Source of the DNA: Clostridiales bacterium
GTDB taxonomy: Bacteria; Bacillota; Clostridia; Christensenellales; Pumilibacteraceae
Direction of reading: 5' to 3'
DNA: 58,049 nucleotides
NCBI GenBank assembly: GCA_022508465.1
Contig: JAFLVB010000004.1
Coordinates: 1 to 58,049, forward strand
Under the pieces are notes generated by a model. It was not told the origin of the DNA. It did not search any database and saw only the letters and a program-made list of their open reading frames with translations. The translations under genes were made by a program, and so were the position numbers. Shown here in pieces: positions 11,672 to 47,025 of this stretch. Position 1 is the stretch's first letter; the number at the start of each line of letters is the position of its first letter.

Positions 11672-11672
11672 T

Positions 11673-11713
11673 AGCAAAGCACCGCCATTTTATGGGCGGT
11701 GCTTTGCTATATC
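11673..11713 (+). terminator. Hairpin/terminator-like after tRNA-Arg
   Basis: TAGCAAAGCACCGCCattttatGGGCGGTGCTTTGCTA, long perfect stem with little U-tract. Confidence 0.5.
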
Positions 11714-11720
11714 CCCCGTA

Positions 11721-11926
11721 AGGACGAGGACAAAGGACTTCCAAAAATGCTTGCATTTTTGGAAAGAGGAGTAACCGACCAAAAACGGAAAGTCTTTAGC
11801 GTCAGCTATAAGACTTTCCGCAAAGGGAGAGTTACGACGAGGTTCGCGGTCGCCGCAGGTAAAGCGCTCAAATAAACGTATAATGTAGCTCGGCGACCAA
11901 GCGAAGCGCTATCCTTCTGGGCGCGC
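11721..11926. repeat. Palindrome-rich repeat (copy B) ending in a copy of the tRNA-Arg 3' end
   Basis: Homologous blocks with 8481-8604; 11911-11926 ATCCTTCTGGGCGCGC equals tRNA bases 11654-11669. Confidence 0.8.
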
Positions 11927-11964
11927 TTTTACCACTTTCAGAATATATAACCACTCCACACCAT

Positions 11965-32644: not shown

Positions 32645-33009
32645 GGGGGTGTATTGGTTTCGACGGGGTTCTGTAAGGCTGAATATAAGCATGTGGTAGT
32701 GCGGCTACCTTAAAACGCAAATCAAAATAAACGCTAATAATCAAAAAACTGCAAGACCCGCTCTTGCGTTAGCTGCTTAATTTATCTTAGCAGTCGTTAC
32801 ACTGTCTTCCCTGCCGAGGGAGCTGTAATGTCAATCAGGCAGGCTACGGCTGATAAGTAGCGGCCCTCACTTATCAGCGGAATCTTAGGCCATGGGACAT
32901 ATGGATTCGTTTGCTAAAAGTATGTCCTAAGACAATAAGCAAACTAAACATGTAGAAGATTCAGTCAGAGGGATTTCGGAAGGGAGTTCGACTCTCCCCA
33001 CCTCCACCA
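32645..33009 (+). ncRNA. ssrA: tmRNA; predicted tag ANNQKTARPALALAA* (32733-32780)
   Basis: 5' GGGGGTGTATTGGTTTCGACGGGG, 3' GGAGTTCGACTCTCCCCACCTCCACCA, tag reading frame GCT..GCGTTAGCTGCTTAA. Confidence 0.95.
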
Positions 33010-33235
33010 GCAGCGTGACGCTGCACCCATTGTCGCATCACAGCGCAGCGGAAGAGCAAGCTTTATTTCCGCGTAGCAGATGCAGACCATAAATATAAAA
33101 GCTACTCAAAGTAAACCTTTATATTTATTAAACAGGGAACATGCGCAAAAAAGCAGTGGGCGACCCAAGGAGCGCAGTGCTCAGCCGAGCCCAAGGCGAA
33201 CGCCACGAAGTACTGTCCGTTCCCCACCTCCACCA
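33010..33235. repeat. Palindrome-rich repeat after tmRNA ending in a copy of the tmRNA 3' end
   Basis: 33221-33235 TCCCCACCTCCACCA equals 32995-33009; includes GCCGAGCCCAAGGCGAACGCCACGAAGTAC. Confidence 0.8.
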
Positions 33236-33529
33236 CTGAAAATTAATACCCAAAGAGGTGTTATCTTTCGTGTTACAGAGTTCAGCGTTCAAATCACTGT
33301 TCGTGCGCGCAAACGTAGTTTGCGGTTTACCAAGGTTTCCCCTTGAAAACAGAATATCATCATTATATTTATCTCATATTGAAATGCACATTAATATTTA
33401 TATTATATGAATATAGAATGAACGAATCATTAAAATAGAAGCAGGCAAAGGAATAATCTTGAAAAGTAGGCACAATTTATCCCGAAATACTTTATTAATG
33501 TATAACAATAAATTGGAGCAAATGACAAA

Positions 33530-34117
33530 ATGGACGAACTCAAATTTAAAGGAACAGAAACGCAAGTCTGCAAAAAATTAGTTAAAGCAGGAATTGGCAA
33601 AGACGAAAATGAAGCCAAGCAATTCCTTAACAATTTAATAAGAAATAAACAAATACTTTCTGATAGTGAATCAGCAAATATGGAGTATTATTTTTCATCC
33701 GGTAGCTATAACCCTGGAGTTCACTATTTTATGACACCTTCTTATAATTATTATATTAGTGTTAAATTCACAACAATTTTTATCATTGCTACCATATTTG
33801 ACATTACTTTAACAAAAGGCTTTGTCTCATCAGCAACCAGCTTCCTTGGAATTCAAAAACAAGGCATAGTTAAGCTGGACGAAAATAATGGAGAAAAATG
33901 TATAGCAAAACAGACCGCTCTAACAAAAAATAAAATCGGAACCCAAGATATTTTATCAGAAAATAACGGTCAATGTTGCAATAAAAATTTCAAATGTCAA
34001 TTTAATATTGAAGGTATATGCCATTGCGATAATTCAAATATTATAACAATTTATGAGAACTTAACTCAGAAGGGCGTATTTAAAAAGCACGAAAATAAGT
34101 ATAAATTTAACTTCTAA
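33530..34117 (+). CDS. Hypothetical protein with one hydrophobic segment and Cys cluster
   Basis: 195 aa; ISVKFTTIFIIATIFDITLTKGF; CCNKNFKCQFNIEGICHCD. No family recognised. Confidence 0.65.
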   Translation: MDELKFKGTETQVCKKLVKAGIGKDENEAKQFLNNLIRNKQILSDSESANMEYYFSSGSYNPGVHYFMTPSYNYYISVKFTTIFIIATIFDITLTKGFVSSATSFLGIQKQGIVKLDENNGEKCIAKQTALTKNKIGTQDILSENNGQCCNKNFKCQFNIEGICHCDNSNIITIYENLTQKGVFKKHENKYKFNF

Positions 34118-34168
34118 TTGCAAACGTAGTTTGCGTACGCCATTCATTAAATTGATAAAAAATCGATT

Positions 34169-34270
34169 TAGATTACACTTCTACAAGCAGCGTGACGCGG
34201 CCCCCCCAAAATCGCATTTTTACTATGCGGAAACCTAAACATTATTTCCGCGTAGCAAATGCAGATTTGC
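34169..34270. repeat. Degenerate copy of tmRNA tail plus its downstream flank
   Basis: CACTTCTACAAGCAGCGTGACGC vs CACCTCCACCAGCAGCGTGACGC; then TCGCAT..GCGGAA..ATTTCCGCGTAGCARATGCAGA in both. Confidence 0.7.
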
Positions 34271-45497: not shown

Positions 45498-45586
45498 GGA
45501 GCGGTATCGAAGTGGTCATAACGGCCCTGACTCGAAATCAGGTAGCCTGAAAGGGCTCGTGGGTTCGAATCCCACCCGCTCCGCCA
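45498..45586 (+). tRNA. tRNA-Ser (anticodon CGA)
   Basis: GGAGCGG..CCGCTCC-G-CCA, long variable arm, anticodon loop CTCGAAA. Confidence 0.93.
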
Positions 45587-45760
45587 AATAAAAAATGACA
45601 CCCTTGTGGTGTCTTTTTTTATTTGCTGTAGTGGTGGGACAAGAATCATTGCTTTAGCAATCGGTTCGCGGTGGCGACGACGAAAATCTTATCCAAGCGT
45701 CTTGACGCTACACTCGCCACCAAGTGAACGAAGCGAACGCCATCCCACCCGCTCCGCCAA
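45587..45760. repeat. Palindrome-rich repeat (copy C) ending in a copy of the tRNA-Ser 3' end
   Basis: 45742-45760 ATCCCACCCGCTCCGCCAA equals 45569-45587; GGTTCGCGGTGGCGA..TCGCCACCAAGTGAACGAAGCGAACGCC. Confidence 0.85.
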
Positions 45761-45952
45761 CAATGATGATTAAAAATCCGAAAAGATTATTCTGATATTA
45801 TTATATAATTCTTTATACGATAAACAGCGGATATAAGAAATGCCGCAAATGCCACTTAAAGTAGCAAAAAAGTGTTTAATGTCATCTATATTTTCTTGAG
45901 ATGTAAAGTATGATATGCTATACTCATCGTATAAAAATAAGGAGAAAGAAAA

Positions 45953-46837
45953 ATGACTTTTGCTAATAAATTGAAAGCACTCCGCAAGCAGTCTAATATG
46001 TCGCAGGAAAAACTTGCGGAGAAACTCTGCGTATCAAGACAGGCAATCACAAAATGGGAAACCGAGGAGGGGATTCCGGATATAGGAAATATTATTGCGA
46101 TTTCTGCTTTGTTTAATGTCTCTATTGACGAGCTTCTATCCGATGAAAAAATTGTAAAGCCAATCGACTATATTTTTGAAAGCGTTACAGAATATGATAT
46201 TGACGCACCAAAGCACTATGATTTGAAATTAGGCGGTGCAAAAAAACTTGTATTATCAGGGTATGATGGTGAAAAAATCCGTGTCCGTTTGGCTTCCAAT
46301 ACATTACAAACTCTCCAAAATGATTTTAAGGTCAAAATCGATGATATAAAAAGGAGAATCGATATAGAGATAATCCGTAAAAATGGGATTACAGAAGCGA
46401 TCGCAAAGGAAGCGATTACAATTTTTGTTCAAATCCCATCACCTTACATTGGGCATATTGAATTAGCTGCTAATGTAGAAACAGTCGAGCTCAACTCTTT
46501 AGAATGCGATAATATCGAACTTGATATAAAAACCTCCAATGTAATATTAGACGGCATACTCGGCAACGTGGAGATCAACTGTAATCTTGATATGAAGATT
46601 GTTTGTCGCACTTTGAACGGCGAAGTTTCAATTAATCAAGTGTCGGCTACTTCAAAAATATTTGTTCCAAAGGGAACAATTTTTACCGCTGTCACAAAAG
46701 GGATTGGCACAAGTATATCTTATGAGAAAGACGAACAACAAGTGAGTGCGTTTTCTACTCAGGCTGTTGAGAACAGAATTGAGCTGAATGGAATTAAGAG
46801 TGAACTTATCATCTGTACTTCTGAAGCGGAAATATAA
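45953..46837 (+). CDS. XRE family regulator with C-terminal DUF4097-like beta domain
   Basis: LRKQSNMSQEKLAEKLCVSRQAITKWETEEGIPDIGNIIAISALFNVSIDELL; beta-rich C-terminal half. Confidence 0.88.
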   Translation: MTFANKLKALRKQSNMSQEKLAEKLCVSRQAITKWETEEGIPDIGNIIAISALFNVSIDELLSDEKIVKPIDYIFESVTEYDIDAPKHYDLKLGGAKKLVLSGYDGEKIRVRLASNTLQTLQNDFKVKIDDIKRRIDIEIIRKNGITEAIAKEAITIFVQIPSPYIGHIELAANVETVELNSLECDNIELDIKTSNVILDGILGNVEINCNLDMKIVCRTLNGEVSINQVSATSKIFVPKGTIFTAVTKGIGTSISYEKDEQQVSAFSTQAVENRIELNGIKSELIICTSEAEI

Positions 46838-46895
46838 CAAACAGATGAAGTCTCTTTAATAATCAAGAAATATAAATCTCAATTCAGCGAAAAAA

Positions 46896-47025
46896 TTCGA
46901 TTTACATTCTTACCACTCCGCCAAATAAAAAGAGGCATTTGTATGCCTCTTTTTTGTTGCGTCGCTTGGTGGGAGCGACCAATTTTGTATAGTAAAAATC
47001 GGTTCACGGTGGCCGTATATGAGGC
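46896..47025. repeat. Third, partial tRNA-Ser tail copy plus downstream module (copy D)
   Basis: 46916-46931 CTCCGCCAAATAAAAA equals tRNA-Ser end plus its flank; then terminator hairpin and TGGTGGGA..TCGGTTCACGGTGGC as in copy C. Confidence 0.7.

Follow-up and report, generated by a model that had tools for sequence, protein, structure and literature searches.

The locus behind tRNA-Ser(CGA)

The window analyzed here, i.e., the whole stretch of 58,049 nucleotides, is contig C34 of a 1.55-Mb draft genome, which comprises 88 contigs and is 93.4% complete; all genomes compared with it were also drafts. It carries an intact tRNA-Ser gene, behind which the tRNA 3' end (the 'tail') recurs twice, as laid out below.

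45498-45586, + strand: tRNA-Ser, anticodon CGA, intact, 3' end ...CTCCGCCA (ARAGORN; Rfam RF00005)
45587-45624, + strand: terminator hairpin directly 3' of tRNA-Ser (inverted repeat I2, from the sequence)
45625-45741, + strand: hairpin spacer with a partial antitail GGTGGGA, H1 and a GGTGGCGA/TCGCCACC stem
45742-45759, + strand: tRNA-Ser tail copy 2, 18 nt exact, ATCCCACCCGCTCCGCCA; candidate landing site (attB) of the gene insert
45760-45952, + strand: left end of the insert and upstream region of the XRE gene, without a recognizable left att arm
45953-46837, + strand: ORF of an XRE regulator with a predicted C-terminal beta-helix (DUF4097-like fold), a foreign orphan gene
46896-46904, + strand: right att arm TTCGATTTA, starting 28 nt before the tail-copy end
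46916-46923, + strand: tRNA-Ser tail copy 3, CTCCGCCA; proposed crossover center CC at 46918-46919
46924-46956, + strand: displaced flank AATAAAAA and terminator hairpin (inverted repeat I5), the proposed former 3' neighbor of tail copy 2
46966-47013, + strand: truncated second spacer-type element (TTGGTGGGA...AATCGGTTCACGGTGGC; direct repeat D2)

The 3' end of tRNA-Ser at 45586 reads ...ATCCCACCCGCTCCGCCA; its last 18 nt are repeated exactly at 45742-45759, and its last 8 nt at 46916-46923, where they are followed by AATAAAAA and then by a terminator. The 1164 bp between tail copies 2 and 3 hold a single gene (45953-46837). A previous sequence-only reading had described the same layout, namely tRNA-Ser, spacer, tail copy, XRE gene, and a third copy on a displaced flank, and all of these were indeed found. 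The second copy, given as 19 nt, is exact over 18, the 19th base being the next A, which may be common by chance or via the flank; the third copy, given as 46916-46931 with the downstream flank included, is a tail copy in 46916-46923, and the downstream flank and terminator hairpin were confirmed. Across the locus, Rfam returned nothing beyond the tRNA and sub-threshold matches.

The same reading had taken the spacer and the XRE gene as one cassette. This was rejected, since exact-tail spacers stand alone behind many tRNAs, and the gene insert lies in tail copy 2. In the host genome, gene-free tail copies are located 125-260 nt 3' of many tRNAs that are last in their operons (Glu, Gly with two in tandem, two Arg, three Ser, and Leu); the tmRNA of the window has the same layout, and such spacers also occur in relatives, both within the genus and in further families of the order (at least two families in all). 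A seven-spacer profile gave ten matches in 374 kb of the genome's own sequence, every one at a tRNA 3' flank, one of which was a tRNA end cut by a contig edge. The locus combines two superposed events: a gene-free tail-copy spacer, and a 1164-bp insert in the second tail copy.

The spacers are built of a terminator, often the reverse complement of the tRNA's own tail, hairpins, and an exact tail copy from the T-loop onward, sometimes in tandem (e.g., 45587-45759, 33010-33235 and 11672-11928 of the window, and loci L016, L024, L026, L027, L013, L089, L097, L239 and L250). In about half of 24 spacers, the stretch directly after the terminator is the reverse complement of the same tRNA's tail, and it is possible that the spacers originated by template switching at the terminator hairpins. 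A second recombinase class is also possible, since the tail copies start at the T-loop, in which the ssrA islands of Dehalococcoides are reported to insert (PMC3146451). Two other arrangements were seen: in L116 (474-661) and L093 (552-750) the second tail copies are whole degenerate tRNA-Leu copies with hairpins inserted in the D-loop and T-loop, and in L033 (1600-1830), L098 and L220 (genomes G002 and G005) arrays of small palindromes with a constant separator word, ATGAAG/CTTCAT or GATGATATAC, lie 3' of tRNAs and tmRNA.

The XRE ORF encodes 294 amino acids, in which Pfam recognized only an N-terminal XRE/HTH_3 domain. The C-terminus is predicted to form a beta-helix (mean pLDDT 91), and the best PDB match of the predicted fold is 4qrk, a putative adhesin (E=8e-10); the DUF4097 label that had been given to the protein thus agrees with the fold, although Pfam calls no such domain. 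The gene is absent from the 73 other genomes of the family (E<=1e-20) and hence, at 1 in 74, is not fixed there, in line with its earlier reading as an insertion. A scan of genome contigs for homologs returned 77 loci, mostly in Lachnospiraceae (66-73% identity) and Streptococcus (62-65%), with the identities in these two groups spanning 60-73% overall. Many homologs are preceded by a common upstream sequence, AATGCCACGCAAAGTAGCA, and in many of the loci at least one further gene lies close behind, often encoding a membrane protein that starts MKTNYLKKYIISSYILVWALI. The window gene has kept the upstream sequence, in the form of AAATGCCACTTAAAGTAGCA (45847-45866), and has lost the downstream genes; no tRNA was found near any of 60 homologous loci. 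Judged by these comparisons, the XRE gene is a recent foreign insert, shared with distantly related gut bacteria and orphaned from its usual neighbors.

A right-end motif at fixed spacing

A parallel insert is found behind the tmRNA gene of the window, with the following features.

32645-33009, + strand: tmRNA gene with the parallel insert
33221-33235, + strand: tmRNA tail copy 2, TCCCCACCTCCACCA
33236-34185, + strand: tmRNA insert, 950 bp, with one ORF (33530-34117) that matches no Pfam or NCBIfam family
34163-34170, + strand: right arm of the tmRNA insert, TCGATTTA

The sequence-only reading had suspected that the right ends of the tRNA-Ser and tmRNA inserts share a motif, and this is real: when the 60 nt preceding each third copy were compared, they aligned over 18 nt with 2 mismatches, a score reached by about 0.4% of random AT-rich pairs, and both inserts carry AAAAAAT(T)CGATTTA[C/G]ATT before the third copy. 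Elsewhere in the host genome, and in 7 further genomes of the genus, the pattern AAAA-N0-3-TCGATTTA-N-ATT had no match. Across 396 genomes of the order it gave five additional matches and the reversed control gave four, so that most of the five are background. One of the five is located directly before a tRNA-Ser tail copy in a genome of another family (G420), where an HNH-nuclease fragment that was inserted 3' of tRNA-Ser(GCT) ends, and 17 nt, AAAATTCGATTTACATT, are identical in the window and in this HNH cassette. On the same contig (contig 12 of G420, loci L227/L231), three single-gene inserts follow tRNA-Ser(GCT), namely the HNH fragment, a cytidine deaminase and a NUDIX gene, each closed by a tail copy.

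The spacing of the motif is constant as well. TTCGATTTA starts exactly 28 nt before the tail-copy end in the window, and it has the same position in the HNH cassette of G420 and in the right ends of islands at tRNA-Ser, three of which (G038, G306 and G241) end in TTCGATTTACGTTACTA[AT]CGCTCCGCCA. Among 456 distinct tail-like sites, 8 have it at offset 28 with at most 1 mismatch, against a total of 6 at the 24 other offsets; part of the right-end sample had been retrieved by the motif, and four of the eight came from loci retrieved only by the left-end pattern. Recurrence at other insertions had been proposed as a check of the motif, and it was indeed observed, in another family of the order and in whole islands, but it is not universal: several tail inserts end without it, viz., a tRNA-Arg insert of the host genome, a DUF3885 insert in G002, one of the three G420 cassettes, and a tRNA-Leu insert in G408. 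A scan of IMG/VR for the right end before TCCGCCA gave 10 matches, none of them at a tail copy.

Three further elements were noted in the course of these comparisons. At tRNA-Ser of G306 (L308), a 5.2-kb recombinase-less element with a right end as in the window insert carries a Dam-like methylase, a second methylase-like gene, a possible restriction gene and an ATPase-like gene, which are probably defense cargo. In the host genome, the minus strand of contig C14 (L071, 8857-8884) has a further right end of the motif family, with one mismatch, beside a restriction-modification-like gene pair and about 3 kb from a tRNA-Ser, with no matching left tail on that strand. Contig C78 (L067, 7580-9667) holds a 2.1-kb insert between tRNA-Arg tail copies, whose genes are an apparent retropepsin-type protease and an XRE-like gene, and whose right end is without the motif.

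Left ends and a large serine recombinase

The tRNA-Ser islands with a TTCGATTTA-type right end start with CCA-N7-CCTAAATCGAAC. The reverse complement of the right-end motif, TAAATCGAA, was seen in several genomes at a distance of about 10 nt from the tRNA end, among them a genus relative (G004), whose orthologous tRNA-Ser(CGA) is followed by the left end GTAAGAACCTAAATCGAAC. CCA-N7-CCTAAATCGAAC was found in 131 of the 396 order genomes, as compared to about 30 control matches, and is usually the 5' arm of the tRNA terminator. It was, therefore, rejected as proof of an island, since most of the many tRNAs that bear it have no tail copy within about 12 kb downstream. In many tRNA terminators of the order (e.g., L269, L275, L299, L314 and L319), the 5' arm is CCTAAA[TA]CGAAC and lies about 8 nt behind CCA; the TCGAAC(C) within it is complementary to GGTTCGA of the T-arm.

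Directly behind some of these left ends, at tRNA-Ser and tRNA-Ala, lie genes for a large serine recombinase (LSR), convergent with the tRNA; they are represented by P0001 of G052 and by a broken copy in G241. P0001 contains Resolvase, Recombinase and Zn-ribbon domains, and its nearest NCBIfam model is CcrB (E 2e-36), with 126 bits, far below the cut-off of 900. In loci L336-L340, homologs with 58% identity or more neighbor tRNA-Ser or tRNA-Ala and the left end CCA-N7-CCTAAA[TA]CGAAC, and more distant ones adjoin other tRNA-Ser genes, tRNA-Trp, tRNA-Val and tmRNA; a fragmentary homolog of 59% identity in G015 is next to tRNA-Trp and has a different left end. G241 is the only element in which both ends were recognized with an LSR inside, its LSR frame being broken N-terminally; for the intact LSR of G052, no right end could be located within 11.8 kb.

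The attP of a serine integrase is a symmetric site with a two-base center. When the right and left ends of four elements were joined, they gave TTCGATTTA-N12/13-CC-N13-TAAATCGAA, a palindrome centered on CC of CTCCGCCA, with perfect 9-bp inverted arms that were reached by at most 0.02% of shuffled sequences. In the XRE insert, the left arm TAAATCGA was not recognized 13 nt after the center; 7 of 22 positions are symmetric (shuffle P=0.52), and the best left-arm match is AAATCCGAA, shifted and with 3 mismatches. In the tmRNA insert, a center of CA is predicted at 34184-34185, one base from the resumed host flank GCAGCGTGACGC, and a left att arm was likewise not recognizable. The left and right junctions have about 2 bp in common at tmRNA and 8-9 bp at tRNA-Ser. 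The XRE insert consists of one gene only, and no P0001-like LSR was found in the window or in the draft genome (E 1e-20).

Origin of the insert and relation to known systems

We propose that the XRE gene was probably carried by an element derived from LSR islands that insert at tRNA 3' ends, either a satellite of them or a decayed remnant. The LSR would join a palindromic attP (TTCGATTTA-N13-CC-N13-TAAATCGA in relatives), proposed to be TTCGATTTACGTTACTAACGCTCCGCCAGTAAGAACCTAAATCGAA, to a tRNA tail, for which the proposed attB is GGGTTCGAATCCCACCCGCTCCGCCAAATAAAAA of tRNA-Ser, with tail copy 2 as the alternative. Crossover at CC of CTCCGCCA would leave a restored tail on the left, and the right arm plus a tail remnant on the right. 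Here, it would have occurred in a pre-existing duplicate of the tRNA-Ser tail, at the end of the 173-bp spacer, thus leaving the tRNA gene and its terminator untouched and placing the old AATAAAAA-hairpin flank behind the third copy. The insert would have brought a regulator gene with its own promoter and no recombinase, which implies that it was moved in trans or that the rest of an island was lost; the tmRNA insert would be a second case, with CA as its center. Since the left arms went unrecognized and no P0001-like gene was found in the draft, the XRE insert is not a complete element, and it may have been moved in trans with subsequent decay of its left end, or may be the right-hand remnant of a larger island. 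The offset-28 peak, the AAAATTCGATTTACATT identity, the palindromic joined ends, the adjacency of LSR and tRNA genes, the left end at the orthologous tRNA of G004, the foreign gene with its tRNA-free homologous loci and the tmRNA center were counted in favor of the LSR; the unrecognized left arms, the lack of an LSR in the draft, the presence of CCTAAATCGAAC at many plain tRNAs, the broken LSR of G241, the missing right end at the LSR of G052, the arm-less inserts and the partly motif-retrieved sample were counted against it, and neither a circular form nor an empty orthologous site was seen.

The junctions also admit other origins. A tyrosine-integrase island, the common type at tRNAs, that left a remnant at the tRNA tail and lost its integrase would account for the tail copies as direct repeats; tRNA 3' ends are the usual target of such integrases (PMC4383910), and three genes for tyrosine recombinases are present in the host genome itself, as well as a fragment next to tRNA-Thr. 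The right arm, however, is that of islands that lie beside LSR genes. Tyrosine integrases require a common overlap of about 6-8 bp; the tRNA-Ser junctions have 8-9 bp in common, the tmRNA junctions about 2 bp. We consider this origin quite unlikely. Illegitimate capture, through microhomology or template switching at the hairpin-rich tails, would explain the missing left arm; the spacers do resemble inverted triplications (tail, terminator, antitail, tail), with antitails of the own tail in about half of 24, and the motif could then be a coincidence or a degenerate T-loop (TTCGA), to which TTCGAT is similar. Yet the exact 28-nt offset is repeated across families and tRNA isoacceptors, the TTTACATT/TTTACGTT that follows TTCGA was in no tRNA seen, and whole multi-gene islands carry the same right end, which makes this account, too, unlikely. 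An integron-like system, with gene cassettes arrayed at tRNA tails and recombining via folded single strands, is suggested by the tandem single genes of G420 (HNH, cytidine deaminase, NUDIX), each with its closing tail copy. It was rejected on folding, because the right end of the XRE insert has no fold (z=-0.38) as an attC-type site would; the symmetry of the ends is also of the duplex attP type of LSRs, and we regard such an array as highly improbable.

An LSR origin remains our preferred reading, and the location of both window inserts in tail copy 2, rather than in the RNA gene, suggests that the tail copies may serve as landing pads. This could be extended, though we hold the extension to be rather doubtful, to an order-wide cassette system, in which LSRs acting in trans stack single-gene cassettes on the duplicated tails of tRNA and tmRNA genes, used as safe landing pads in much the way that integrons use attI. 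If the LSR reading is true, the presence of TTCGATTTA 28 nt before a tail copy would be a simple test by which unexplained single-gene inserts beside tRNAs in uncultured gut bacteria could be assigned to a named class of recombinase, even where small size or decay keeps an insert from counting as an island. A group of serine recombinases with a directly testable attP would also be added, whose targets, namely tRNA-Ser, tRNA-Ala and probably further RNA genes, are usually credited to tyrosine integrases. A limited literature search, with subscription journals outside its scope, found no published description of the att motif or of the spacers.

Islands of a CcrB-like recombinase at the tmRNA tail are already known, as are elements that lack their own recombinase; what differs here is the targets, the att sequence and the size. 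The ssrA islands of Dehalococcoides, arranged in tandem at the tmRNA tail, have a CcrB-like serine recombinase (DsiB), are reported to insert in the T-loop with a 20-bp repeat, and include 15 islands without an integration module (PMC3146451). They share with the present elements the RNA-gene 3' end, tandem islands bounded by tail repeats, and recombinase-less members, and perhaps the recombinase type, CcrB being the nearest model of P0001; however, their site is placed in the T-loop, and of ssrA only, whereas here the center lies inside the last 8 nt, several tRNAs and tmRNA are targets, the att sequence is a distinct one, and single-gene inserts are possible. SCCmec and pseudo-SCC elements (Ccr serine recombinases), some of which lack ccr, are related in that CcrB is the nearest curated family of P0001 (126 of 900 bits), but their target is the end of a protein gene, unlike the tRNA tails here. 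Tycheposons and classical tRNA islands also carry cargo at tRNA 3' ends with tail repeats on either side. This arrangement is common to them and the XRE insert, but they employ tyrosine recombinases, whereas the att arms here go with LSRs (for tycheposons, see PMC10872708). The CIMEs (cis-mobilizable elements) of streptococci have no recombinase or transfer genes, keep their att sites and accrete in tandem in them (PMC5704250); the XRE insert similarly lacks such genes, but of its att sequence only the right half is recognizable, and its cargo is one gene. Overall, the XRE insert is probably a stripped-down or decayed passenger of an LSR island family.
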